Source of the DNA: Metarhizium brunneum
Taxonomy: Eukaryota > Ascomycota > Sordariomycetes > Hypocreales > Clavicipitaceae
Assembly: GCF_013426205.1 (NCBI RefSeq)
Contig: NC_089422.1
Coordinates: 372,001-436,000, forward strand
Direction of reading: 5' to 3'
Length of the DNA stretch: 64,000 nt
The first letter of the stretch is position 1, and every line of letters starts with the position of its first letter. The position numbers and the translations under genes are program-made. The notes below the pieces were generated by a model that was not told where the DNA came from, searched no databases, and was given only the letters and a program-made list of their open reading frames with translations. Positions 43,661 to 64,000 of the stretch are shown one piece after another.

Positions 43661-46600
43661 CTAACTTATACTAGTATATTGCGATAAACTCGCCTTCAGC
43701 AATTCCACGATGTTCTCATGCCCATACTCAGCGGCTAGGTGTAATGCCAAATCCCTCGAGACCTGATCCTGTACATTTACATCAGCGCCGTTAGCGAGCA
43801 GCAGCTTGACGGTCGTATCGTGCCCGTTAGCGACAGCGTGCATCAGGGCTGTCCTGCCGTAGTCATTCTTGGCATTAATACAAGCTCCATTCTTGAGGAG
43901 CAACTCCACAAACGTGTCTTGACCATCTCGAGCAGCGCATATTAGCGCTGTGTTACCCTTATTATTCGCCGTATTCATATTAGCGCCTTTCTCAATAAGC
44001 AGCTTTGCTATAACGTTATGACCATAATTAGCAGCGTATATTAGCGCTGTGCCGCCATACTTATTGCTCGCATTTATATTGGCGCCTTTCTCAATAAGCA
44101 GCGTTGTTATGACCTCGTGACCGTTTATAGCAGCGTATATTAGCGCTGTGTGACCCTTATTATTCGCCGTATTCATATTAGCGCCTTTCTCAATAAGCAG
44201 CTTTACTATAACGTTATGACCACGATCAGCAGCGTATATTAGCGCTGTGTTACCCTTATTATTCGCCGCATTCACATTGGCGCCTTTCTCGACAAGCAGC
44301 TTTGCTGTGACCTCGTGACCATAGCTGGCAGCGCAAATTAGCGCTGTCAAGCCCTCCTCGTCCGCCGCATTCACGTTGGCGCCGTGTTCAATAAGCGGCT
44401 TTACTATAACGTGATGACCACCGTTGGCAGCAAATATTAGCGCTGTGTTGCCATGCTCGTCCACCGCATTCACATCGGCGCCGTGTTCAATAAGCAGTTT
44501 CGCTTTTGTATCATACCCAAAGAAGGCGGCTCTTAGTAGCGCCGTTCTGCTCTCCTCGTCCTTCTCATCCACATTACCCTTCTTGGCGAGTAGCAGTTTC
44601 AGAATCGTACCGTTTCCACAGTCCACCGCACGAATTAGCGGTTTCTGGCTATTGCTAGACTTCACATTGACCTTGGAGCCCTTCTCAAGGAGCAGCTGAA
44701 CCAATGGCTCGTGCCCCCGATCGATGGCATAGAGAAGCGGAGTGTTGCCCAAATCATCCTCTTCCTTTTTTAGGACCCTTGAGAGTATCGAAAAGCGGCG
44801 GCCCGACAAGATTTTTCGAGCCAGCCACTCGATCCCGAAACAGGAAGCCAAGTGTAATAACGGTAGGTTAGGAAGTCGGCCTGAAGGCATGAAGTCTATG
44901 GGCATAGGTGTTTCAAGTGTCCACCAATATGACACCCACCAATATGTCCGCAAGTTAGATTGCTTGCGGAACATGGGTCGTGAAAGGTCCAAGTGCTTCT
45001 CCCCGTATGCAGAAGAATGTCTTGCATGTTCTGGCCACCATTCCAATGCGTAGTCCAAGAGAGGCGACTTCTGCAGGTCCAATGCGTCAGACACGGGCCC
45101 ATTACGCAGATCGCTGCCCTCAATGCAATCCAGACACACTTCTAGCAGTTCAAAATGAGCTTCACCAGTGTTGATGAGAAACTCCTCGGGTGCTTCGTAA
45201 TTGCCTGACATCATCGGTCTTAGTAAGTAGTCCCTGGCTGACTGGTGGACAAGGTCGACGATCTCCTTGTCTTCGCCCACCTTGAGCACCCTGAGCATCG
45301 GCTCACACAAAGTGATGTAGTCGCTCATGACCTTTTCGGCGCTCAGGCTCGCCAAGGGTCCGACTTGGACAGCCTTTGCTAATTCTGACAATGTCAGAGG
45401 CCGAGTGGCCATGACAACCCAACGCAAGATTTTGGAGGCCACCAGCCCTAGGCTATTTTTCATCTTCTGTAACATCCGGCCATACATTGCGTCCAGCCCG
45501 GGTGGAAACTCCTCCAGCGAATCCAAGATTTCGGTACATGTCGTCTTCTTCAACAGCTCCATTATCACGAGGCTGACCCAGAGAAAAGTGCCGTTGGCTC
45601 CATGTCGAAGAGTGGTTTCGACTTGCTCGCGAATGCAACCAAAGTCTTCCACCTTGTCAAGTTCCTCGACTTTGGCGGATATAAAATTCGTAATGTCGTC
45701 GCTGACATGTCCCTCGTCATCATGGTCTAGATTCACCTGACAAAAAGCCTCTAGCCCCTTGAGCTTTCGGCTAACAATTGCCAACTTGAGCATCTTGTTG
45801 GACTTGTCTGGCGGAAAAAAGTCGCAAAATTTGCCAACTAGCATGCCTGTGCTCTCACCGTCACATTCGTCCAGCCCGTCAATGACGCAGAGAACCGTGC
45901 CGAGGTTGGCCTGTAGGAGCGTTTGAAATACAACCCAGAGAGCTTGCGCAGAAGATACCGTCGTCTGTGTTTTCTGACTACTTTCAAAGTATTTCGAGAT
46001 GCTCTTCATCAAATGTGGGCGCTTGGAGAGCAGTTGGCACACGAGGGACCTAAGAACAGCCACGGCACTGTTGCGGTTTTCGTCCTGATGGTCGCAAAAG
46101 TAGAACAAAAGTTCCGTGTCTTTTGATTTTTGGGTATGCTTCTCAAGCTCCTCTGTTAGAAAGATGGAGAGCATTGTTTTCCCCTTGCCAGGGCCACCGG
46201 AAATCCAAAGAAATTGCGAGTCGCCACCAAGCCAGGATTGGTATTTTTCATTGTCCTTGACCCATTTGCAGGTGCCTTTAGTCCTCTGGCCTTTCCTGCT
46301 TTTGAGGGTTTCCAGATCAACGACTGGCTCTCTGAGGGATAATGCGTCTCGACAGGCGTTGACTTGATTGTCGCCCGTGAGGAGCTGGGCATCGCCTCGC
46401 TCAACAAGGGCAACTTTCGGTACTGCTCTTAGTTTCATCTTTGCACTGGGGAAACATGGTTCGATTGACAAATTACATACATCTTGTTCTGTCCGTTCTT
46501 GGGTAGCGCTCGAGCAGGGCTTTGGTAGCAGCTGCAGCCGTTGCAGCCGCGTAGTTCTGCCACTGCTTATTCTTGTGACTGTCTGCATAGTCACAAACAC

Positions 46601-47562
46601 TCTTGACTATGATACAAGGGATCTCGTCCCACACGCCGGCTCCTTCCATCTCAAAAGCGACAAGGTTGTGTTTCTCGGCTATAATGTCTCGGAGTTGGCC
46701 GGATTTTATCACTTTATCACCCGAGCCAATGCAACCAAAGAATACACTGGGATTCATAGGCGCCGAGCCATGTTCTTTCCCATGGATGTCGAGGCGAGCC
46801 CGCTGCACTAGTTGACCATGAAGATGACACTGAAGATCTTTACAAGTCTGGTTGCGTGCCTTGTCGCAAGACTTGTCTGGATGCTGGCAGCCCTCGCAAC
46901 CAGACTGGTGTTTGTGTAAATGGGTTGGCCCAAATAATTTATCTTCCTCAATGCCAGGATACTGGTATGTGGCTGAGCATGACTTCGGAACAGGCTTGTT
47001 TTGTAGCTTTCGGAGATGGGCTACTGTGCGTTCCTCGATATTTGTAATAAGAACTTGCGATTGAATTGTAGAGGAAGCTTCGTATCGTCTTGGTCGGCCT
47101 ACCAAGACCCTCATCCACGGTAGTTTTTGCCACAAATCCATCGTGATACTCACGTCCGAGATCGTACTGGACTACTCTCCTGGCGAGTATCACGTCTCCA
47201 AGCACAATTCCATTTGCCTCCGCATGGGGCACTCCGCCGCAGATGCCCGTCAGGACAACAGCAAGCTCAAGGTTTGGAAAGCTCGACCGAAGACTCGCTG
47301 CGGTGCTGGCGGCGATGACTTTGCCCATCTCCGAAAGACGAACAATGACAGCATCGACCGGGCCTATTCGTCCGGTAAAGTACGTATTTTGATCGCCGGG
47401 AGCCCGCCCGTAGAGGTCACTCGCCAAGTCATAGAAGCTGTCAAACAGAAGGCTGACTGCATTGTATTCACAGAGCAATGCGCATAGTATAGCAACTCGA
47501 AATTCGTCGCGACTTGCGGGGCGCGTTGCTATTGTCGTAGAGGATATGTCGGTAAAATGCAA
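43661..47562 (-). CDS. Fungal NLR: nucleoside phosphorylase - NACHT - ankyrin repeats (probably disrupted)
   Basis: Read on the minus strand. An N-terminal PNP/UDP-phosphorylase-like domain begins FRVAILCALLCEYNAV, with VVLTGICGGVPHAE and, later, LVAFEMEGAGVWDE. A 58-bp intron (46423-46480) leads to a NACHT ATPase: Walker A ISGGPGKGKTM, Walker B VLCVIDGLDECDG. About eleven ankyrin repeats follow to the stop at 43661. Such NLRs sense non-self or pathogen cues in fungi and trigger regulated cell death; the phosphorylase-like domain acts as the effector or sensor end. Two defects: no ATG in frame near the N terminus (the frame opens at a TAG and the first usable codon is TTG at 47562), and a one-base frameshift near 47068 inside a conserved part of the phosphorylase domain. 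Unless an unseen first exon and a sequencing error explain these, the gene is inactive. Coordinates of the N-terminal end are approximate. Confidence 0.8.
43930..44430 (-). repeat. Near-identical 99-bp ankyrin repeat units
   Basis: Units of 33 residues with almost the same DNA: NNKGNTALIYAA, GHNVIVKLLIEKGAN and MNT/VNA recur with few changes, whereas outer repeats are diverged. This is the mark of recent unit duplication or conversion seen in fungal recognition genes. Confidence 0.75.
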
Positions 47563-49081
47563 AAGGCTCTGTGGCTACTAGGGAACTTTCAGTCTGTGGA
47601 GATGCCAGAGCAAGGGCGGAAATATAACGTCAAGTTAGACAAGATCAGGCAAAAATTGGGTTCTGCCACTACACAAGGCTGGGGGGGCCTGCTCTGATGG
47701 CGTTTGATGGCTACTCCATCACATTACGTCTTGGCCAATCGGCCCATACAAAGTGTCAAATATCGACAGCCGTTGTGTGGCCCGCAAAGTAGAATCGTGG
47801 CGTCAAGTAACCTGAACATGCCTGCCGAACCTGACCCGGATGGCCGATGTATTTGATCGAGTCAGGAGAAAGACTGCCACAGAATGCAGTCTCAAATTGC
47901 TGGCAAGTAAATCCCCACATATCTCGTTGAAAGAAGACACGGCTTCTCATACTGGGCACTGAGCAGTAAAGTACCACTTGTCTTTGTTGCCGGATCCTCA
48001 CGGGTTGCCGTTGCAGCCTTGTATGATGCTCGAAGGGATCCGCACGCGCAGAAGCACCCGACATATTTGACCGAGACATTGACTGCACTACAACGTATGG
48101 CTTGCGGGGTTTGGACATGCAAGCATAAGACTTGTCATTTATGTTGCGTTGCGGTTGACAAAGTATCCTGGTCTCGGCCCTCTCTCATCCCACGACCTTA
48201 TCTGAGCAGCCTCAATACCCAACATGAGTATTCCGTACATCTACTCCGTATTGGAAGCCGTATGCATCCCAACATCCCCCGCATTGTCTGTCATACCATT
48301 TACTCGACCCTACCAGACACCCTTTAGCGACTAGCCCACCATCATCTTTCGCTTACCCGAGCCCGTGATGGTTGGGTTTCTCGGAACAGGTAGGAATTAT
48401 ATTCACCTGAGGCTCTTGTGAGCCAGTATTCGAATCCAAGCCGCGCCAACTACACCCAACTCGTATAATATGCGTACGAATGGCAGCGCCTCGCGAGATG
48501 GATGGGGTAGCGGAAAATTCGAGCTTCACACGCCGTGCGGCTAACGACCGGGCTTGAACTTGGTATTTCTCAATCGACTTGGCATTTCTCAATTCAAGTT
48601 CAAAGAGTATGGCGGCGAACTTCATTCTGCTGTGTGAATTGTCGTAATTTTCCGAACAGTTTCAAGAGGCTCCTTTGCTCGCCTCCGCCCCTTCGGCTAC
48701 ATCAGCGTGGTAAGGATATTACGTGCCGCGTACTCTAAAAATAGAAACGATTTATCTACCAATTGGTAGATGCCTGCCACTTGCCGGGATACTGCTTCCG
48801 GGAGTAAGCCGCGAATGGTCAGATCGATATAGCTGTTGCTTTTCATGTACGAAAGACAGTACTGCTTTAGCCTCTCGCAACCCTTGCCGTGGAAGGTTTT
48901 CCCGTGGCTTGAGAAAATTTCATTAAACTCATTTTCCATAAAAATAAAGTCCCTTGCAGATTCGTGAACGAATCGAACCGTGGCAGTAAATTATCAAGAT
49001 AGAACCCACCCGGTAATATTACGACAGTATATCGAATACGCTACCTACTACCGGGTAGCTTGGTCTCATTCGTCGCCATGT
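47563..49081. other. Intergenic, no gene supported
   Basis: Upstream of the NLR. No ORF shows a family resemblance. A first NLR exon could be hidden here but I could not find a phase-compatible one. Confidence 0.35.
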
Positions 49082-49675: not shown

Positions 49676-52600
49676 CTAGAACGCGGCGCCAGGCCGATCG
49701 TTGTTGGGAAATTTATCGGATCCCTCATCGACATCGGCTGGCGAGGATGGGGTGTACAACATGGTGTTGCCTTTCTTCGATTCCTTCCGCCGGCTACTAG
49801 ACTCTGGGCCCATGGTACTGAGTACTTCTGCCGCGGTAGGTCGCTCCGCGGGATCAACAGCTAGCGTCCGCTTGAGGAGTTGATAGAGTTTTTCTGGCAA
49901 GTCCGGCCGCTCCCTGTTCTCGTCCTGGAAGCCCTTCCAGCGTATAATTTCGGCGCGGAGCTCGTTCCTTTCTTTGAATATACCATTCCCCACGTACTCG
50001 GTATTCCTGTAAGGCAGGCGATTGAAACACAAAAAGTAAAGAACCAAGCCCAGGGAGAATATATTTGAACTCGTGGTCGGGTTACCAAATTGACTGCTAG
50101 CATCCTGTGTTAGAAGCTCAGGGGCGTAATAGGAGATGGTGCGCGGAGCCCCAGTTAGGTCTTCAATGGCGCTCTTTCGTTGGACTTTGCCAAAGTTGGT
50201 AATCAGGCAAGTGAGTTTCCCCCCTTCACGGTTTAGAAGACAGTGACTAGAATTCAAGTCGCGGTGGATGTAATTCAAGCTGTGCAGATACGCCAGACCA
50301 GACGCGATATCCTTGAATAGGGAGCAAATTTCGTCGGGCGGGAGTCTGCGCGGGGGCGCCAGGGTTGAACGCTGATATTCGAACAGCACGCGTTCGGCGG
50401 GCTGGCCTAATTGAGCCATGAACTGCTCCTTCATCATCTCTGTGGAGAGTCCACTCATTACATACTGCTTCAAGTCGCCGACATTGCAGTATTGCTGGAG
50501 GATGAATACACAAGTCACGGATGAAGGATTAATCGGATGAAAGTTCAAATTAATCGGATCAAAGTCGGAATTAATCGGATCAAAGTTGGAATCCTCCAAC
50601 CATGCGTGGCGATACAAGACAAGGTTGGAGTGAGAGAGTTTGGTTAGGAGTTTGACCTCGATTAGGAACTTCTCTAACCATCCGTAATCGTCTCCAACTG
50701 GCACCTGCCTGCAGGCAAAGGAACCTAAGTAGGCACCATCGATCTCGTGGCGGACCAATCGAACAATACTGTTCCAATCCCACCCCAGCACTCTCTCTTC
50801 AACGAAGAAAGTTTTGAAATACCCGGGGGAGAGCGAGTCTCTGAGGATGGGAGCCCACTCATGCCAAGCCGGGGCGCTTGAAATTGATTCGGCGTCTTCT
50901 ACATCCCGAACACTATTGCTGACGGGAAGGGAGGACTGGGACTCGTGTCCAATGGGACTTGATGGCATAGGCTGGCCATCATTGCTGTCTCTCATGTCCG
51001 CCTCGAGCATGTGGAAGTAGCTGGGACCTATCCGGGACTCATCATTTGATGGTATATCCGATGAGCATGATGTTTGAGAGGGGAACCGGCCATCGCTGGG
51101 TTCGTCTACGAAGTAGTCATTGTGAGAGAAATAATCTTTATGAGATTTGACGATCAGCGCTGACTCCCCTGCGTCAGCCTTTGGCGGGTTCCGGTCGATT
51201 TCACAGAGTTGTAGTGATTGTTCGCCCATTAATGTCGTCTCGTCTGGCGGCCCAACGATGTCCAAACAGAGCGGGTTGCCTTCAGGATCGTAGACGAGTT
51301 TGATCCCGCGGTCCGTGTCGAAGCTTGGAGCTTGAGTCTCAGCCCATCCGGCGACGTCAAAGATATATACGTCGCCCTCACTGTCCTTGCCATGGCGGAC
51401 TGCGTGCGCCATGTCGAATGTTCCAACTGGTTTGTCAAGACTGATGGTCGGGTCGGCAGGCCAAGGCAGGGAACGGAGCGAGAAGTCATGGATGTGCTGC
51501 AAAACATGTTCAACCAGGTCTGGAGAATCCTGAGGACCTTCAGAATCACACAAGGGGCATTTCGTTATTCCCATTACGTTTAGTTCTGCTTCTTGCAACA
51601 AGGCCTCGAGACTGTCAGGTGCAGCGTCCAGATGCGCAGACATCAGATGAGCCGTGATTCCGGATATGGACTTGAATATGGGAGGGTCGCCTCCGCAACA
51701 AGGACATTGCCATTGCGGCGGGTGGTCACTCATGACGTGGTCGTTCCACTCCTGCTGCGTTACGAAGAGATGGTACGGCGTTGGGCAATTCTCAAGGATG
51801 CACGTGTACGGGCACAGGTCATTCGCCAAGTGTTTTCTGGCCTCGTTAGCTTCCTGACCAGACAGTGCGATTGACGTCAATTTCTTACCTCCATTGGCTG
51901 TCCTCCAGCTCTGTGGTTGGGATGGCCTGGCAGCAGCAGGGGCATTTGACCAGTCTCTGGTCCGGGTCCAACGAGTCGCGTGCCTTGGGATACGTCGCTG
52001 AAGCTGTGATGGCCGTGATGCGTGTCACTGTCGATCCCGGCCGACGACTATTTCGAAATCCTCCCCATTTGGAATCGAGGCCTGAAGCTGACGTTGCATT
52101 TACTGTGGGTGCTTCATTTGCCGCACCGGCCGCGCGCGCTTGTATCTGGCGAATTTGGGTCATGGGCTTGACTTTCTGGTTGGGATGCGTCCTGGCCAAG
52201 GCGAAGACTTCCTGTGATCCCACGGGACGAGAAGATTTCGTGGAGTAGTCTAGCAGCCCCTGGGAGTGTCGCTGCGCTTCGGTAAATCTGTGTCGCCGTC
52301 GCAAGTTTGCCTCGACGAGGCGATGCTGGATTGGCGGGAGCTCCAGTTCTGCAAAGTAATCCATGCTGTGTATCTCCTTCCCCTCGTCTGCGGGCCTGCC
52401 GCCTTCGGTTGGTTTCGACGCAACAACGCAGGCGAGATGTGCTCGGAGCTTTTGGTAATTGTCCCGGTTTCGCTCAAAGGAACCATCTACCTTTCGAAGC
52501 CGAGAGTTGCGGCCACTCCGCCGAATTTGTACGCCTATAAAGGCCAGGCTATCTATCGTCGAGTCAATGTTGGTGATTACATTTCGTAAATGGGCATCGT

Positions 52601-52892
52601 TGTCTGCCGCGATGAGGCATTCCCGTAGAAAGCCCTCTAGCATGTGGAGGAGGCTTTGGATGAAATAGATGTCGTCGGGCCGGTGCTTGAACCTTGCATC
52701 TAGAGAAGCCTTCTCCCGAGCTGTGGCCCCAACGCTGTCAGACCAAAGCCTCAAATCCGCAAGTCTGGTTTGAAGATGTGTCTTCTCCTTGCCCTCTTGC
52801 TGATGAATGCATTGTTGCAATTTTTGAAGGCAGGACCTCGTGACCTCGGCTGTCGAAGCCTCGGTAAGAGAGTCTTGTACGGAGGATGCCAT
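49676..52892 (-). CDS. Zinc-finger / pseudokinase protein of NLR-like type, two exons
   Basis: Exons 52892-51889 and 51836-49676 (minus), joined over a 52-bp intron, give 1054 residues. About 300 helical N-terminal residues are followed by cysteine/histidine fingers: CPCCCQAIP, CPYTCILENC, WNDHVMSDH, CPCCGG and CPLCDSEG, the cluster of fungal C2H2-type proteins that often precede ankyrin or kinase parts. The C half is kinase-like: SFACRQVPV (Arg where the ATP lysine should be), YIHRDLNSSHCLL (HRD kept; His replaces the metal-binding Asn) and LITNFGKV (NFG for DFG). It is therefore probably a pseudokinase that binds or scaffolds. Tandem DPIN heptads interrupt the N lobe. The protein ends at a TAG just before an ankyrin remnant, so it may be truncated. 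Tail-to-tail spacing to the NLR is about 2.1 kb. Confidence 0.75.
50521..50590 (-). repeat. 21-bp tandem repeat inside the pseudokinase
   Basis: Three units encoding NFDPINS, DFDPINL and NFHPINP, inserted between beta-4 and the hinge strand. Likely variable in copy number. Confidence 0.75.
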
Positions 52893-53240
52893 GACTGCTA
52901 GCCTCGAGCGTGAAGTGGTAGGTTATCCGAAACCTCCTTCTTGACTTTGCTCGACCTGCTCAAGGTCACCGACGGAAGGATAGCAGAGGACTTTGCGATG
53001 GCGGTTCGATGCGACGAGAACTGTTGCGCAGCGGGACGACAAGCTGTATGATGAAGGAAGGACAGAAAAAAATACAATTTGCGTCTGCTGGCCAGCTCTT
53101 ATTGAAGGCGTCATCTTTTAGCCAGTGTCACACGGCTGAGATTACAACAAAGGCATTGGGTCAACAATGGTTACAGAACAACAAAGAAGGTCCGGTATTA
53201 CAAGCCCGAGGTTAAGCCGCAAGCCTAAGCTACTTTAAGC
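52893..53240. other. Divergent promoter region, left part
   Basis: Upstream of the zinc-finger/pseudokinase gene. Nothing coding. Confidence 0.45.
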
Positions 53241-53440
53241 TTTTATATTTTTATATATTATTATATATTTTTATATATTATTATATATTTTTATATATTA
53301 TTATATATTTTTATATATTATTATATATTTTTATATATTATTATATATTTTTATATATTATTATATATTTTTATATATTATTTTATATTTTTATATATTA
53401 TTTTATATTTTTATATATTATTTTATGTTTTTATATAAAA
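53241..53440. repeat. AT-only minisatellite, ten 20-bp units
   Basis: Unit TTATATATTTTTATATATTA repeated ten times, the first and the last three units carrying small changes. Lies between two divergent recognition-type genes. Confidence 0.95.
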
Positions 53441-53678: not shown

Positions 53679-56600
53679 ATGAGCTATCCCAAAAATCGCA
53701 CACGCGTCTTTCCCTCGGAGATGCTGGCCTCGGTGGCTGCAGAGGCGTCGGATATTCTCTTCCCAATTGCCATTGCGAACATGAGTGCTTCCGCAGGCGA
53801 GATAGCCACCCGACTTCGCTATATCGGCGGGGATTTGTTGACACAGGGGCTTTATCAGCTTCCCCCAGATATCCAAACCTTTTGCCTCCAGGCTCTCCAG
53901 GATCTTTTGAAAATCTGCAAGGTAGGTTAGGGCGCTGGCCCGAGCATCGAGCAGTGAGCTAAAGTGGTGAACTCCCTAGTGGCCCGTACTGTCAACTGCT
54001 GCGAGTCGCTTGCATTCGAGTGAAAGCCCCCAGGAGCTACGCGATGCCCTCATTCAGCTATGCAAAAAAGAAGAGTTCAGAGATGGAGTGCAGAGATCAA
54101 TCACCAAGTTCTGCAAGGAGCGGGCCGATACTATGAAGCCTTACCAGTTACGCTTCGTCCAGCTTTCCGACAAACTCTCGAAAAATGCCCAAGAAATCGA
54201 CGGCAGTGCCAATGATGCCGGGCCGTATCTTCATCTCCGTCCTTTTGGGCGGGATGTGTATCCCGACGACGTCCACAAGCTGCTTCTTCACGGAATGACG
54301 AGACTTGCAACGTGTGCGCAACAATACCACAATGCGCCGGCTCTCAGTGATTTCACAGGAGCTGATTGGCATCCAACTAGGCTCTGCCTCAATTCTGGAT
54401 TTCGATCAGAAGACAAGCGGGCGCTCTTCAACATTATAACCGCAACCTCGGAAATGGTGTACTGGCAGGAAATGGGCGTCACTGTCCCCATGTAAGTTGT
54501 TACTTCCCTCCTCTCCTCTCCGGAATGACCATCTGGTCGTCTGTAATTCGAGATCATTGTAGTTATGCATCAAAATGCATGAGAGATGGTAAAAGGCTTG
54601 TCGTCTCCAACAGTCTGGCGACCAAAAGCCTTACAAAATGGCATGTCTCGTCTCGAAATCTAGCGCAGATATTCGCTCAATGAGACTTCCGTACATGAGA
54701 AAATTGCTGGTGCCACAAGTTTGTCCCTAGTCACTACTTTGACGGCAGAAAGTTTCTTGCCCAAGGTGCCTGTTTTTGACGTAGGGTGTAACAAACTATA
54801 GCGAGCGGACTCGTTAGTACTCAAGGTAGTCAGAATCAGCTAATAGGTCACAGAAAAGATGCCAAACATGGCAAGAGGTTTCCCTTCGACTTCGATTCTT
54901 CTAAATTGTCTTTCGTGGGGTACGGTGATGTTTGCAAGCGTCTCGAGAATCCTAACTATGCCAAAGTGTATCTCGGTACGTGAATACTCAATTTTTGGGA
55001 GCCTTATGACGTTGGAGTCCCTCTTCTCGTCATCCATTCCGACTCAATAAGATATCTCGGTCTCATATCTCAATGCGAGAACTCTTTGGCTAGACTCGAA
55101 TAAGCACTGACTTTTCAAATTAGATGTAGGTGAAGATTGTCAGCTCTATGAACGGCCAGATCCCGGGGGACTTCAGCATATCATAACAGGCTGTGGCGTT
55201 AAGCTTTCTGAACTATTAAGCTTGAGCGAACTCACAGTCGAGCACAAGATCAAGCTTTCTTACACCGTCGCTCGAGCCTTCTGGCAGTTTTACAATTCAG
55301 AACTAATGAATGCAAGGTGGACAAGCGAGGACATCGTCTTCATCCCACTCAATAAGGAATTCTCACCAGAGGAAGGGATTCCTCTGAGGGCCTTCGTTTC
55401 GTTTCCCTTCGGCCATAGATACAGGAAATCGCCAGAAGAATGCTACGATAAAGACCAATTCACTCATCGATATCCTAGAATACTGTATCTAGGCATTATT
55501 CTCTTGGAGATCGGGCTTGGCCAGGCACTCAGACTGGAGCACAACCCAAAACTCAGCCTCCTTGCACACATAAACACGGCCCATGCCAAAGCCAAGATGA
55601 AGTTGAAGGAGCTGAATGATGCTGAATGGGATGGTTTCAGGTGGAAGGAATATTTCGTCGAAGCCGTCAGAAACTGTTTTGACTCTGCGAATTTCAAAGA
55701 GAACCCAAAGCCACAAAACCCCGGACGACGAGGGGATTCGGAGGGTGCCGACAAGGACGCCAAGGCTTCGGCCTTTCTCGAACGAAGAGACGCCCTGTAC
55801 CAAAAGGTTGTTGCCCCCTTGTTTTGGTTAGCTACGACGGGGTTCGAAGACTCGGAAGAAGTGCCACTGGTACCCATTCGGAGCAAGATACGCCGCCGAT
55901 CAACACTTGTGAAAAATGGACATGAGGAACTGCAAACCTTTTGGAATGAAGTACACGCCCACCCCTCGTTCATGTCCGGTAGTTCAATCAACACCGAGGG
56001 ATTTCTTGAAGATCTTCAAGTAATAGCGGGGCATATAGCACGCTGTCGGCGGCTGGCCAAGACGACGAAACCAATCCGCGTCGCGATTCTGGATACTGGG
56101 TGTCACAAAGGCCTGCGCTTTTTTCAAAACCCCCAAAGAATTATGAGGCTCAAGGGCTGGAAGGACTTCACCTCTGCAGGCTCGGAAACTGAGATTGACA
56201 CATTCGGCCACGGAACATTCATGGCACGACTACTAATGCATGTTGCGCCGATAATTGATGTCTATGTGGTTCGCGTGGCAGAGAATGCAGAAGACCTGGA
56301 AACCCACGAAAATGAAATTGCCAAGGTATGTGCTGCGTAACTGGTCTTGGACGTACTGACCATAAACCAGGCCATCGAGTTCGCGGGGTTGGACCCAGAT
56401 TGGAAGGTCGACATCATTTCCATGTCGTTTGGCTTCCCCAACAAGCCCGGGGTAAAACACGTCGTCATTTCGGATGCTATTGAGAAAATCAAGAAGGATC
56501 GCAATGATTCCGTACTATTTCTCGCGAGCGCCGGAAACTCTTGGGAGAGGAGAGTCGATTTCCCCGCCAGCCACCAAGACGTCATACCCATCTACGCCGC

Positions 56601-57024
56601 CGATGCCACAGGAGCTTTCCTACGTTCGAATCCAGCCCACACAGGCAAAGGGTCTGCAAAGCTCGGTACTTATGGCACAGATATCCCGACCTCCATCATT
56701 GAGGAAGTACAGGAATTTTTGCCCACGGCGCATCTCGGCGCCGGCACATCGATCGCCACAGCGATCGCCGCTGGGGTCGTCGCTATGATGCTCTCGTACA
56801 TCCAAGCACTTCCGGCACTCCTCAAACTCCGGGGATTTCATGAGGTCTGTGCCAAGCTCTACACGAAAAGAGGGATGGAAAATATGCTACATGCCATGTC
56901 TTTGACGACTGGCTACCGGCAACAGTTTATTAACCCGATACACTTCTGGGGGGAGAAGAAGAAGGACGTGGAGGTCTTTATTTCCGTCTGCAGCGCGGTT
57001 GAGAAGATGAATAACGAAGCATGA
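53679..57024 (+). CDS. Subtilisin-like (S8) protease with N-terminal helical domain, candidate gasdermin activator
   Basis: Supported exons: 53679-53921, 53980-54491, 54563-about 54640, 54847-54975, 55124-56325 and 56371-57024; the third exon's 3' end is not resolved and the frame meets a stop near 54682 if unspliced. The first two thirds are helical (for example LREL-type stretches and KLSYTVARAFWQFYNSELM, similar to the DUF7580 region common in fungal recognition proteins). The C part is a peptidase S8 domain with all catalytic residues: Asp in VAILDTG (codon at 56092), His in FGHGTFMA (56209), oxyanion Asn in ASAGN (56536) and Ser in GTSIATA (56749). No signal peptide, so it acts inside the cell. 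It lies tail-to-tail with a gasdermin-like gene, 212 bp between stops, the arrangement expected for a protease that cleaves and activates that pore former (HET-Q2 type). Start is the first ATG in frame. Confidence 0.8.
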
Positions 57025-57236
57025 AGGGAACAGTCATTGCGGTATTTTGGTTATTTTATCGGCATGTTAGTCACTGGCCGAGCTTGTTACAAACTTGACT
57101 ACGAGACTTTGGCTGCTATGGGGAATTGACAGTCCCGAATTCTTTTTTTGTATATACTGGGCTACGTTTGGGGAGACTGAAAGCGTACATAAATGATAGC
57201 CGTTGAACTGACACGGTTAATTCAATGCCTCATTAT

Positions 57237-58076
57237 TCAGTTTTTAAGCGAGATAGAGATGCACAGCTCGTCCTCTCCAATCTCTGCGCTTTCGTACTCG
57301 ATCTCTTCCTCCAAGTCTCCATCAATTTCGTCCTTTGTGGCTTCGCCAAAGACCAACGGCACCGCCTCTTTCTTTCCAGCATCCCCCAGGAATGCGCTCT
57401 TGTGGCTAAACATTTCCGTCTCTACCCCCGCCCGTCGGGTTCTAATAACGCAGAGTCGGTACGCAAACACGACCCCAGACGCCGTGTCATACGAGTCGGT
57501 GAGCTTTGCCAGCCCCTCGTGCTTCATTCTCCCGCCAACCTCGGCGGGTATCGTACCAGCAGGCGGGCCAGACCCCGCAGCCTCCATGGTGAAATCCGAA
57601 CCCTGCCCCCTGGCCACGGTAAAAGACGAGGTGGCGATTCGCAGCCCCGAGACAATGTAGACGGGGCGCTTGCCAAACACGCCCGAGTCGATCTGGGCAC
57701 GGACCGCCGGGAGGTTGGCAATGGCCGCCACCGTCTCCGGCATCAGCGGGTCTCGGAAAGTTCGGACCTCGTGGTCCGTCTTGCCATAGTCGACGCTGTT
57801 GTTCTTCCCGACGCCTGCGCCGGCCGATGCGGACGCGAGGCCTTCAAACTTGGACCATAGGCTGAGGCTGTCGGACCGCGAGCGCGAGCGCGAGTGGGTG
57901 TGGTTTGGTTCTACAATGGTCTTGAGCGCCGGCAGCTTGATTTCGCCGGCGGCGCCGGAGGCCACGTCGGCGAGGACCGTGGTCGGCCTGGACCAGTGCG
58001 GAATCACCATGCCCATGCGGAGAGGGCCGTCGGCGGTGAAGGTAAAGTCTGGGAGGAGGAACCATGTTGCGGGCAT
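57237..58076 (-). CDS. Gasdermin-like pore-forming protein (RCD-1/HET-Q1 family)
   Basis: A single exon of 279 residues on the minus strand, ATG at 58076. Family marks: an N-terminal hydrophobic LPDFTFTADGPLRMGMVI strand, a central KRPVYIVSGLRIAT segment, a GVVFAYRLCVIRT strand and a following short linker. The body is about 240 residues, then an acidic tail of about 35 residues (Glu/Asp-rich, DLEEEIEYESAEIGEDE). Fungal gasdermin-like proteins of this size (RCD-1 in Neurospora, HET-Q1 in Podospora) have a membrane-inserting N part and a short inhibitory C-terminal tail that is cut off by a partner protease, after which they assemble in the plasma membrane and kill the cell. An Arg/Ser-rich loop (SRSRSRSDS) near residue 65 is basic and may bind acidic lipids (inference). 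The neighbouring S8 protease is the likely activator. Identified from motif memory; structure prediction would settle it. Confidence 0.8.
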   Translation of the reverse strand: MPATWFLLPDFTFTADGPLRMGMVIPHWSRPTTVLADVASGAAGEIKLPALKTIVEPNHTHSRSRSRSDSLSLWSKFEGLASASAGAGVGKNNSVDYGKTDHEVRTFRDPLMPETVAAIANLPAVRAQIDSGVFGKRPVYIVSGLRIATSSFTVARGQGSDFTMEAAGSGPPAGTIPAEVGGRMKHEGLAKLTDSYDTASGVVFAYRLCVIRTRRAGVETEMFSHKSAFLGDAGKKEAVPLVFGEATKDEIDGDLEEEIEYESAEIGEDELCISISLKN

Positions 58077-59128
58077 CGTGGCGCTCTTGGGCTTCGGGTG
58101 CTTGGAGCTGCCAACATGAAGGACTTGAGCTGGATGAGGCAGAAGTCTGCTGGTTTTGTTCGCGCCCCGCAGTATTAGTGCGATGGATTCCAGAACCCTC
58201 CTTTACTACCAGTTGTGCCTTCTTGTTACGGACTTCAATACGACCTTGTCACAAGCTAGGCGGCAGGGGCACGACAGCTAACGGATCAATAGTCGGAACG
58301 ATACGGGTGACATGGGGTGTTCACGAGCCGTGTAAGTCCATAATCTATGGCAATGTAACACGAACTTGCCCAGGGATCGCGTCAATCTTGGGCGTGTGAT
58401 TCTCGGCATGGAGATGAAATCTTGCACCTTGATTTTTTGACCCTGGTCAGTGGTATATACTCTACTAATGTCAACCGTCTCACAGCTATTATGTTCCCTC
58501 CTAAACTCTGCAAACTCAAGATATTTAATACTTCAGAATACTACTGCCTTCACGCTACACTGTTACCACTTGCCATTTTGGTGGCAAAAAGCCCCAATGT
58601 GTTTCAATTAACAGAGGCATTTTTATTCGACACATGACGGCATGTACGGAAATGGCTGGACTGACATGCGTTTTATCAGCGGTCTGGCACCACGACGTAT
58701 TTCTCGGTAGTATGACAAGTGCAACGGCCGTGAATAGGCTGGCCATCCCTGGAGCGTGCCCGCCGCTTTGCTGTATTGCGTGAACTCGAAGATAGTTGAC
58801 CGCATGTGAGCTGAGTGACTGTATGGTGATGAAAAAAGCTATTCAAGTTATAATAGTATTTTATTAAGCCCTGGCATGTATACTCCTAGCGGCTGGTTAG
58901 TGTACTTTTGGAACATGTCCCAGTCAATGTGCGTGTTTGATCAGAAGGGTCAAGTCAACCCTGGGCCACACCAGTGGACTTGTACTTGGCTTATGTGGCA
59001 GCATTTCTCAGCGAGAAGTGGTATGAATGTAATAATCAAGTCAATTGTAAAGATGTAACTAGTCTATAAATGAATAATGAGAAGGATAAGTATAAGCCGT
59101 AAAAATAGGCAGTAGCATTCTATTCAAG
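58077..59128. other. Intergenic, gasdermin 5' region
   Basis: Promoter side of the gasdermin-like gene; no other gene recognised. AT-rich toward the right. Confidence 0.4.
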
Positions 59129-59629
59129 GTGTCATGTGGTGTATTTGACCCGGTAACACCAGACTACACCAGACTCAAGTCGGCAACCAACATCAAGGAC
59201 TCGGAACTATGGATTCAGATCGGACAGGTACAGTCATTGCCCCCAACCAACTTGGTGCACATACTCACATTACCGAACCAGGTCCCATGGGCAACCAAAT
59301 ACTCCAATTGGCATTACCAGTACATGGCGTATCCCACCCAGGCCCTCGCCGCCGTAGCCGCGCTCCGGGAATATACCCTCACTGACTGGGAAACGTACCT
59401 GTCTGTGGATGAGTCAGTACGGAAACAGATTACAATCTATAAGAAGGGGAGCGAAAGCACAAACGATCCGCTGCTGATGCCGGCGCATTTGCTGATTAGC
59501 AGTCGGGCCAAGAACGCAGGCATGGCGAAGAAGTTTGCCGACTGGCTGACGAGCCGAGCGGGCCAGGAGGTGATTGAGCAGTTTCGCAAAAACGGCCAGC
59601 AGGTGTACACGCCGGCACCGACAATTTAA
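59129..59629 (+). pseudogene. C-terminal fragment of a periplasmic-binding-like (PBP, tungstate-type) protein
   Basis: The translation SCGVFDPVTPDYTRL, then ATNIKDSELWIQIGQ, VPWATKYSNWHYQYM, LREYTLTDWETYL, DPLLMPAHLLISS and FADWLTSRAGQEVIEQF matches the C lobe of fungal extracellular PBP-like proteins related to bacterial tungstate/molybdate binders. A 54-bp intron with normal ends (59228-59281) is still recognisable and happens to be readable. The N lobe and signal peptide are missing; the sequence upstream is AT-rich and stops immediately. I take it as a truncated relic. Confidence 0.6.
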
Positions 59630-60549: not shown

Positions 60550-61410
60550 CTAGCTTGACCCTGCTGAGAGGAAAGGTAGCTTGATATCAAGATTGCCAAC
60601 CCACTCATCTGCAGCTCCAGAGGCAGTGGCTGCACCTATGGTAAAGATCCTGCTCGTTACTTTAGCCGGGTAGGTTTCATTCTGCTTAGCACCCTTATCA
60701 CTAGCTGAGAAAAACACGAGTTTATTCTCATCGACCGCCTTCACGATAGCGGCCTCGCGACACCGCCTTTCGTTTTCATCCTCTGGCGGGTCGATCGTCC
60801 AGGACATGGAAATAATGTGAACACTCTTTCTCATGGCCGCCAAGATGGCCTGTATTTGAAATGTTAGACCTTCATGACTGCCAAGAAGAGCGCTGGGAGG
60901 CAGGGACCTGAGCTGCGCTCCTAGCAGTGATTTGACAGCCAGCCTCCTCGGAATAGTAATATTCCAGCCTCAATACGAAGAACTTTGCGCCGGGGCACAA
61001 AAGATGAATTCGCTTCGCCATGATAGTTCCGTTACTCGTACTTGACACATAATATAAGTCGTTGAGATTATATTCCTCATCACGAGTGCAGAAGGTCCGT
61101 CCACCAATAAACGAGTCCTCCAGGTCTTTCGCATCCACACCATCATTAATGAGGGCAACTTTAACAGGCTCTTCTACGCCGTCTTTAATCTCTCGACTAT
61201 CATGATATCTCTCGGCGTCAAAAAGCAGCTTGCGAGATTCCTTCATGCACTGGATCCATTCATGCTTGGCTGAATGTGCCTTTTCGGCCCGCGCGGCGTT
61301 GGCATCTGATGGCCATCGTTGAACGGTTGGTCCTTCTCTGAGAATCGTAACCTATGGGCACAGCTCCTTCATGCGCTCATAAAATTGATCGACTTTTTGT
61401 TGTGTGCGAT
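60550..61410 (-). pseudogene. Degenerate subtilisin-like (S8) protease relic
   Basis: Minus strand. DQFYERMKELCP runs into an in-frame TAG (61352-61354), then continues AEKAHSAKHEWIQCM, KLLFDAERYHDS and VKVALINDGVD, the start of an S8 domain. A 58-bp intron (60850-60907) leads to AAMRKSVHIISMSW, VFFSASDKG and FTIGAATASG. Catalytic Asp is kept, but the GHGT motif reads SNGT (His lost), SAGN reads SASD (Asn lost), and a stop at 60550 removes the part with the catalytic Ser. It must be inactive. It resembles the S8 domains of large fungal recognition proteins more than it does the intact S8 at 53.7-57.0 kb. Confidence 0.75.
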
Positions 61411-62033: not shown

Positions 62034-64000
62034 TGATGAGCGTTGTTGCAATAAAGTCAGGCCCTGGGAAAGCGAGGTTTATATGGGACCAAGTGAAAGA
62101 GACAGCGCACTACGAAATCGCAGCCCTGTGCATCGATTAGTTATCAAGACCCAGCGTAGTGAAAATTCTCAACGAACCCTCTGAGTTCACTGACGCGGAA
62201 TCCTTCGAAACGCCCGAATTTGTTGACCGAGGAAATCTGTGTTCATACGCCATCCAGGCGTGGCCTCGTCATCTCTTGCTCGGCTCTTCTAGGCCAGACT
62301 TGTCGCTATTGCAGTTGCAATCAAACTATCCTGTTCTTTCAAAAGTTTGTTCAAAGGTGTATTGGGCTCTGTTGAACTGCGTAACAAGAAGTCCCACCTG
62401 TGGAGAGACGTTGTTTCCTATTTTTACTGGATTTGGAGTACCAGATGTGATTAGGCGGATTGTTGCAGAGAATGAAGCTGACCTCTCTACGCGGCAGCAC
62501 GGCACGATGCCCCGCCGAGGATGCTGGAATTCCCGAGCAAGATTGACTTGGACAAACAGAATAGCGAGGGATCATCGGCTGTTCATCCCAATATACCACT
62601 CACAAACTTCAAAAGTCCCGTCAACGCTGGTGCCAAGTTGGAAATTCAGGACACCGTCGCAGGAGACACGCCTTTGGCAAATGCCGCGTACAATAATCAG
62701 TTAGAATACGCCGAGTATCTTTTGAAACTTGGCGCCAATATCAATCTAGTCTCGCCATGCTACTGCGCGCCTCTTCATCAAGCGCATCTGGCATGTAGCT
62801 TGAGTATGCTGATGTTGCTCATCAAGCACTGGGCCGATCCAAACTGCCCTTGCGAGGATGCTGTTACGGGCGCCCCTCTACAGGCTGAACTAACGGCACA
62901 CGATGCTAAGAATTCTCGTGTTGACGAGATAGTTGACTATCTGATTGCAAAGGGCGCAGACGTGACGGCCGAGGGTGGGTTGTTTCGTTTTACAATCAAC
63001 GCCGCGGCATTCCAGGAGACACCGACGCTGATCAGTCGTCTTGTCAACAACGGAGCAACTATAGACGTCATGGACCAGACAATTGTCGATTTGGGCGGTG
63101 ACATCAACAGCTGGGACGAAATGGGTCGAACGGCGGCCCATTGGGCATCACAACCAGGTCGTTCACAGCACTTGAGGTCGTCGAGATGATCATGTCGTCA
63201 ACAGCGGAAAGGCAATCCGCCAATATACCAGACATAGATGGTTGGACACCATTGTTCTGGGCCGTGCGTGGAACTCGCTCCTTGCTGAACAAAGGTGTGG
63301 CAGGTGAGCCGCAAGATCAGACCAAGGTTATAAAACTCTTGCTTCAGAGAGGAACTGACCGCTCTATTCTGGTGTCTGCTACTGGACCTAAATGGTCTCC
63401 TCTCAAGATTTCGCGTTTCTCGTGACGATCCGCGGGGGTCGTCCATCTCCCCGAGCATGGTCTCGCTTTTACAAACACATCCAGAGGAGCAGAGAGTGGC
63501 AACCCTTCAGAGGAACCGGATGAAAGAGACGTAGACCAATTCAAAGCAGCCAACACCTGATCGCTTTACTGTGACGCTTGTCTATGTGTACGTTTTAATG
63601 TCACGGTTCAAGTCTATATTATTTTCTTCACATGCTTGCCTAACCTCCGGCAGATACCAGCATCTCTTGCTGGGATCCAAAATGTACTAACCCTCCTGCA
63701 GGATATTCGAGGCTTTATATACCGCTGCAAGACATGTTGCAACTTTGAGTTCTGCGTCAAGTGCTATCCGCACAGACGCATCGTATACTCATCCCCGGAC
63801 CATATTTTCGAGGAGCTTGGCCCGGAATTTGAAGATGTCCCTGGCGCCGACGGCACAGACACGCCGGGTGCTAGTACATCTTCGAACTCGGATTCAGACT
63901 CGGACTATGAAGACTGGGAGACTCCTCTGTACTCTGTAGTATCTTGTGCTAGCTGGTTTTGCAGAGCCCGTCTGCGAGTTCACCAAAGACTGGTTATTGG
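62034..64000 (+). pseudogene. Decayed ankyrin-repeat / ZZ zinc-finger recognition-type gene, cut by window edge
   Basis: Starts with KARFIWDQVKETAHYEIAAL, reaches an in-frame TAG (62138-62140), then LCSYAIQAWPRHLLLGSS and FTGFGVPDVIRRIV, typical of the linker between NACHT-type and ankyrin parts in fungal proteins. Ankyrin repeats follow in a shifted frame from about 62530 (GDTPLANAAYNNQLEYAEYL, IVDYLIAKGADV) and shift again near 63150 (DIDGWTPLFWAVRG, VIKLLLQRGTD). After an intron-like acceptor at about 63699 comes a ZZ-type finger (YRCKTCCNFEFCVKCYPHR, then DHIFEELGPEFED) and an acidic Ser tail, open to the window end. At least one nonsense and two frameshifts mark it as inactive. Confidence 0.72.

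Follow-up and report, generated by a model that had tools for sequence, protein, structure and literature searches.

Does a pair of genes lying tail to tail in the genome of Metarhizium brunneum, one encoding a serine protease of the S8 family and the other a small protein resembling fungal gasdermins, form a device for killing the cell that carries it, and if so, how might that device be set off? The pair lies in a window of 64,000 nucleotides (C1:372001-436000, in a genome of 37.77 Mb and seven contigs) from a genus of fungi that kill insects and are employed in biological control. A first-pass annotation described a protease with a complete Asp/His/Asn/Ser set that ends 212 bp from a gasdermin-family protein with an acidic C-terminal tail, compared the pair with HET-Q1/HET-Q2 of Podospora anserina and with RCD-1 of Neurospora, and interpreted it as a toxin-plus-trigger module with cleavage expected at about residue 240. 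The analyses described here suggest that the two genes compose a pyroptosis-like regulated cell-death module in which the gasdermin is activated by its neighbouring protease, a reading to which we assign a probability of roughly 0.8 on the strength of sequence comparison and analogy.

The gasdermin and its neighbouring protease

Taken by itself, the 279-residue protein has no Pfam family at an expectation value (E) of 1 or below and yields chance matches only against the sequences of the PDB. Its relatives number 113 (87 from a first search and 26 from a further one), the closest named being MAJ_05616 of M. majus (94%), and profiles built from them point to a single family. Specifically, a profile (A1) that combined the window protein with 49 of the 87 relatives gave four matches at E<=10 among all PDB sequences, each of them to RCD-1 (best 6.3e-4), and a profile of 43 sequences (A4; the window protein, two paralogues encoded in its genome and 40 of the 113 relatives) gave seven matches at that threshold, every one a gasdermin. 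The best of these were RCD-1-1 (8jyz, 1.6e-7) and RCD-1-2 (2.9e-6); also matched were the HET-Q1 pores (9uv9, 2.7e-4) and bacterial gasdermins (8sl0, 4.3e-3; 7n51, 5.4e-3). By the evidence of these profiles the protein is homologous to the gasdermin pore-forming domain, as the first-pass annotation had supposed, and the PDB sequence profile does not suggest an unrelated fold. An AlphaFold2 model places long strands at residues 51-76/82-107 and 153-168/182-197, with helices at 113-120 and 123-130 between them.

The last body strand of the model ends at residue 213 and is followed by a low-confidence linker at 217-237, which moves the expected cut into this linker from the body boundary near residue 240 proposed earlier. 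The acidic tail was correctly perceived: the last 50 residues contain 16 Asp or Glu against 4 Lys or Arg (isoelectric point 4.05), the tail beyond Phe229 amounts to 50 residues and 5.4 kDa with a net charge of -12, and a net negative charge (median -13) is shared by the equivalent tails of all 83 sequences, the window protein included, that have 20 or more residues in this region. Among the window protein and 87 relatives examined for conservation, Phe229 is present in 84 of the 84 sequences covering the position and Phe223 in 82 of 83, with looser residues between them (58-82%). According to the portion of a review consulted here, HET-Q1 sheds a C-terminal fragment of about 5 kDa when cut by HET-Q2, likely at F238 (PMC12881547). 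Because size, region and residue match this cleavage, the cut in the window protein most likely falls, by analogy, in the 217-237 linker, at or beside Phe229 (or Phe223).

The exons of the protease gene (Table 1) were derived from the DNA by alignment with three relatives (P0088, P0089 and P0091), of which the P0088 protein model would place the acceptor of exon 4 six bases further on. The resulting introns measure 58, 362, 148 and 45 bp, all four with GT..AG borders, and the spliced frame runs through 910 residues with zero internal stops. Since relatives align across them, their borders are GT..AG and no internal stop is left, the apparent frame interruptions are read as introns; a broken protease frame, a concern raised at the outset, is not seen in the DNA and is ruled out at that level by the alignment. 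The catalytic set noted in the first-pass annotation is borne out by the spliced protein, in which each motif occurs once (Asp AILDTG, His GHGTFMA, Asn ASAGNS, Ser GTSIATA), and the corresponding columns across 32 aligned relatives hold D in 32, H in 30, N in 31 and S in 31. With a 618-residue query, the closest named relatives are an S8 peptidase of M. brunneum (95%) and a protein of M. robertsii (88%).

Pfam reports Peptidase_S8 above its cut-off and, N-terminal to it, an extra domain unnamed in the earlier description, DUF7580. A DUF7580 profile of six relatives produced a single match in the PDB (1gyt, E 0.35) and none to a kinase, so that a by-eye reading of the domain as a pseudokinase is no more than a possibility. 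The name DUF7580 was not found in the literature searched. This part of the protein may act as a sensor.

Conservation of the pairing

The two genes are convergent, and the spacing between the protease stop and the gasdermin open reading frame (ORF) is the 212 bp originally reported. A random position in the genome, in which 50 S8 loci were found, has a chance of about 1% of lying within 3 kb of one; given this expectation and the recurrence of the adjacency in other genomes, the gasdermin-protease neighbourhood is not a product of chance.

The recurrence is apparent from two kinds of comparison, for which the best 120 of 210 protease relatives were used. Firstly, for 32 of the 113 gasdermin relatives the contig is equal in length to one bearing a protease relative among the matches listed (31 contigs), against a mean of 0.11 and a maximum of 2 coincidences in an offset control with lengths shifted by 1-50 either way. 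Secondly, 28 gasdermins carry ordered locus tags, and 11 of them (10 genomes) share a prefix with a protease among the matches listed; ten of these 11 pairs are consecutive (distance 1), including PV07_09761/09762, PAC_11569/11568, MMC07_009064/009065 and N7494_009401/009402. In the eleventh case, RB595_010415, the gasdermin is one of two copies in its genome, of which the other is paired, and the remaining 17 tagged gasdermins have no same-prefix protease among the matches listed. Synteny with protease genes, which the first-pass annotation had expected of the family, is thereby found.

In a mirror-tree comparison of the window pair with 21 of the matched pairs (32 in all), the correlation between the two distance matrices reached 0.942, a value attained in 0 of 5000 permutations (best 0.66). 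These pairs were hand-picked as named; of the 11 omitted, one is the named pair from Rosellinia and ten are either duplicates or unnamed. In both the gasdermin tree and the protease tree, pairs from Fusarium, Stachybotrys and Trichoderma join some others in a clade (support 1.000) that excludes the window, and the position of the window relative to the pairs outside that clade is poorly supported (0.66 and 0.75). Metarhizium, Fusarium, Stachybotrys and Trichoderma all belong to the Hypocreales, and the most similar named pairs outside Metarhizium come from Cladophialophora, Xylogone, Phialocephala and Clarireedia, members of fungal classes other than its own. Because the window lies outside the clade of its fellow Hypocreales, duplication with loss, or transfer, is needed; on these trees, possible histories of the unit are a transfer from one fungal class to another and an early duplication followed by frequent loss.

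Gasdermin loci number at least five in this genome (Table 1), as found by single-protein searches and by running the profile on fetched stretches. The second pair on C2 (L033) is intact-looking, with S8 motifs seen by eye and no DUF7580 match at that place. An S8 stretch lies within 3 kb at three of the five loci, the window included, for which the chance expectation is about 1e-5 given the number of S8 loci. With two intact-looking pairs, one solitary gasdermin and two decayed loci, the genome appears to capture both the formation and the decay of such modules at once.

These findings bear directly on the suggestion that the two genes are chance neighbours and that the gasdermin works uncleaved in the manner of RCD-1. 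That RCD-1, a protein not controlled by a protease, is the top-scoring solved relative lends the suggestion its appeal, yet the consecutive tags in 10 of 11 cases, the mirror-tree value of 0.942 and the recurrence within the same genome leave it scarcely credible.

Proposed mechanism, alternatives and surrounding genes

In the module favoured here, the 279-residue gasdermin would be made as an inactive precursor, its acidic tail (about 230-279) blocking the pore-forming body (about 1-215). The 910-residue neighbour would be an intracellular sensor-protease whose DUF7580-bearing N-terminal part senses a trigger, candidates being a mycovirus, another microbe or non-self encountered when hyphae fuse. 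Sensing would release the C-terminal S8 protease, which would cut the gasdermin linker, most probably at Phe229 or beside it (Phe223 being the other candidate), so that about 5 kDa is shed; the freed body would then oligomerise in the plasma membrane, and the hyphal compartment would die. Intact genes, a complete catalytic set, gasdermin homology, the charge of the tail and the conserved pairing are what the sequences show in support of this scheme; the sensing, the cleavage and its site, pore formation, death, the trigger and the location in the cell are its inferred parts. The het-Q2 product is thought to be constitutively active in the sections consulted of a survey of fungal gasdermins (PMC10197012). 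As both genes reside in one genome, the window protease is presumably not constitutively active and is held inactive until triggered.

Several observations weigh against this interpretation. With regard to the pairing, no S8 stretch was found nearer than 900 kb to the solitary C6 gasdermin, and the closest of the three CHAT matches in the genome lies about 78 kb from it. In addition, 81 of the 113 gasdermin relatives have no equal-length protease contig among the matches listed, the possible reasons being short contigs, the 90 protease matches outside the best 120 of 210, or genes that truly stand alone; 10 of the 31 shared contigs are shorter than 25 kb, and on long contigs sharing alone is no proof of adjacency. 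The mirror-tree correlation, for its part, is not corrected for shared species descent. With regard to the protein, confidence in the AlphaFold2 model is moderate, with a predicted local distance difference test score (pLDDT) of 70.8, a predicted template-modelling score (pTM) of 0.66 and values below 50 in the linker. Phe229 is present in 40 of 43 sequences of the wider alignment, and in L033 and L035, the two paralogues of the same genome, that column holds His and Leu, and position 223 Phe and Tyr, respectively; therefore, either the cut site differs between modules or Phe229 is conserved in the window family for folding instead of cleavage.

Sequence cannot separate activating from inactivating cleavage, and a toxin-antidote pair would also be tightly paired, so the protease might be thought to restrain or destroy the gasdermin with no activation at all. 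Such an antidote role is very unlikely, however, as both cases of fungal proteolysis described in the consulted portion of the review, namely HET-Q1 cut by HET-Q2 and a gasdermin of P. anserina cut by a TPR-CHAT protease, lead to activation (PMC12881547), the conserved acidic tail would be left without a reason, and the C6 gasdermin has been retained although no protease was found nearby.

A protease and a gasdermin can also be brought together from different haplotypes, only after the fusion of unlike strains, as occurs with het-Q1 and het-Q2, and the window might thus represent a heterokaryon-incompatibility locus proper. The molecules do correspond to HET-Q1 and HET-Q2, and relatives within the genus differ, the protease matching an M. 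brunneum protein at 95% against 88% for one of M. robertsii in the 618-residue comparison. In the review as consulted (PMC12881547), though, the het-Q1 and het-Q2 genes are idiomorphs, distinct genes that occupy one locus, whereas both genes adjoin in the window genome and the same cis pairing is found in other genomes, which makes this explanation improbable. A death kit in which the gasdermin is triggered by a protease is thus the best reading, and the toxin-plus-trigger portion of the first-pass annotation survives without its framing as a HET-Q incompatibility pair.

Upstream of the protease and divergent from it lies a putative gene whose C-terminal part is a protein kinase and whose N-terminal part is zinc-finger-like by Cys/His spacing read by eye, with no Pfam zinc-finger match in that part. 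A paralogous zinc-finger-like fragment accompanies the decayed pair on C7 in the order and orientation of the window, and a weak zinc-finger-like relative lies about 3 kb from the solitary C6 gasdermin at E 5e-6 without composition correction or filtering, nothing remaining at 1e-3 once both are applied. Members of the zinc-finger-like family also occur at several places (L050, L051, L052 and L053) with no gasdermin match in the fetched stretches, and their presence away from gasdermins weakens the case for a larger unit. The gene is thus a tentative member, and a three-gene death module of gasdermin, DUF7580-S8 protease and zinc-finger-like/kinase protein, inherited or transferred together, is doubtful; if it did exist, the zinc-finger-like/kinase protein would act upstream.

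Additional features surround these genes. Between the zinc-finger-like/kinase gene and the start of the protease is an AT-rich 20-bp tandem array (53244-53437; 9.7 copies, 98% match). Beyond the gasdermin, a 177-residue frame at 59096-59629 (+) bears a weak likeness to bacterial solute-binding proteins (PBP_like_2, 1.6e-4, below cut-off), and about 2.5 kb away a second S8-type gene (60550-61351, -) is present as fragments in two overlapping frames, one with a Pfam S8 match; its His motif position reads as Asn by eye (SNGTIMA), and it looks like a decayed protease. Two successive frames with ankyrin-repeat matches follow (62482-63425 and 63561-63998, both +), and beyond them is a weak ZZ-like zinc finger (E 0.059, below cut-off). 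On the other side, about 6 kb from the protease start, an NLR-type gene putatively joined across three frames (43661-47574, -) comprises, in order, a phosphorylase-superfamily part, NPHP3_N/NACHT, a winged helix and ankyrin repeats, the last containing a 99-bp tandem array (43931-44504, 77% match). As the genome has 57 NPHP3_N-matched stretches, a single NLR nearby is unremarkable, and the notion of a dense defence island was rejected.

Table 1. Positions of the genes and parts of the window pair, and of the gasdermin loci of the genome
Feature	Position	Strand	Details
Zinc-finger-like/kinase gene	49676-52922	-	Overlapping frames 49676-52024 and 51885-52922, putatively joined; divergent from protease
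DUF7580-Peptidase_S8 protease gene (HET-Q2-like, Q2L)	53679-57024	+	Five exons, 910 residues, intact in DNA
Protease exon 1	53679-53921	+	Relatives aligned to DNA
Protease exon 2	53980-54491	+	Relatives aligned to DNA
Protease exon 3 (short)	54854-54975	+	Relatives aligned to DNA
Protease exon 4	55124-56325	+	Part of DUF7580, S8 Asp and His motifs; relatives aligned to DNA
Protease exon 5	56371-57024	+	S8 Asn and Ser motifs, C terminus; relatives aligned to DNA
Convergent intergenic gap	57025-57236	.	212 bp; ORF coordinates
Fungal gasdermin gene (fGSDM)	57237-58076	-	Single uninterrupted exon, 279 residues
Gasdermin layout (residues)			Body to about 215; linker 217-237 with Phe223/Phe229; acidic tail 230-279
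Gasdermin locus 1	Window		Gasdermin and DUF7580-S8 pair, intact in DNA
Gasdermin locus 2	L033 4058-6179, C2 6.314-6.317 Mb		275-residue gasdermin and S8 gene, tail to tail, separated by 196 bp
Gasdermin locus 3	L034, C2 0.310 Mb		Gasdermin and DUF7580-S8 matches with stops, divergent, without catalytic His motif
Gasdermin locus 4	L035 4346-5209, C6 0.357 Mb		Solitary 287-residue gasdermin, long alternating Glu-Asp tail
Gasdermin locus 5	L036 4906-7277, C7 0.984-0.987 Mb		Gasdermin and DUF7580-type protease N-terminal remnants, convergent; zinc-finger-like relic beyond

Comparison with known systems

A search of the literature on Metarhizium and gasdermin, confined to titles, returned none about a Metarhizium gasdermin, and the pair described here places an apparently intact protease-gasdermin death module in that genus. 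It also supplies a precise prediction, namely the loss of about 5 kDa near Phe229 in dependence on the neighbouring serine protease. Should the death response limit strain mixing or the spread of mycoviruses, it would bear on the compatibility of strains in the field.

Among the systems with which the pair can be compared, HET-Q1/HET-Q2 shares a gasdermin body by profile, an S8 partner and a C-terminal piece of about 5 kDa past a Phe, which is F238 in the review as consulted (PMC12881547) and Phe229 by prediction here; the likeness to HET-Q2 is one of S8 class and description. The Podospora genes differ in being idiomorphs, whereas those of the window lie in cis, are convergent and include a protease with DUF7580. 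RCD-1-1/RCD-1-2 of Neurospora crassa belong to the same gasdermin family by profile, so that this part of the original comparison holds, but RCD-1 is a poor mechanistic model because it is not protease-controlled: in the accounts consulted it is activated when two allelic forms meet, with no cleavage, and is without a C-terminal inhibitory domain. The protease pairing argues against RCD-1-type allorecognition for the window gasdermin. Bacterial gasdermins, too, match by profile and are paired with protease genes in the sources as consulted, but they are anti-phage systems and are far diverged in sequence.

The closest correspondence is with the fungal clusters of fGSDM and Q2L genes. The survey, in the sections consulted, counts about 1,900 fGSDM genes in 400 genomes, of which about 80% cluster with proteases (about 63% S8; 19% near CHAT genes), and gives the name Q2L, with 18 architectures, to the gasdermin-paired proteases (PMC10197012). 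The review, as consulted, describes Q2L-type proteases as putative sensors of several domains, in some cases including 'predicted kinase-like domains' that might or might not correspond to the DUF7580 region, and treats the triggers of fungal gasdermin proteases as an open question (PMC12881547). At 212 bp, the window gasdermin lies well inside the 10 kb within which a gasdermin gene marks a protease as Q2L. Adjacent genes, an intact S8 set, an extra putative sensor region and a short acidic tail are common to these clusters and the window, and no essential difference was found. Taken together, these comparisons identify the window pair as a well-supported further example of an already described fungal protease-gasdermin kit, and not as a new kind.

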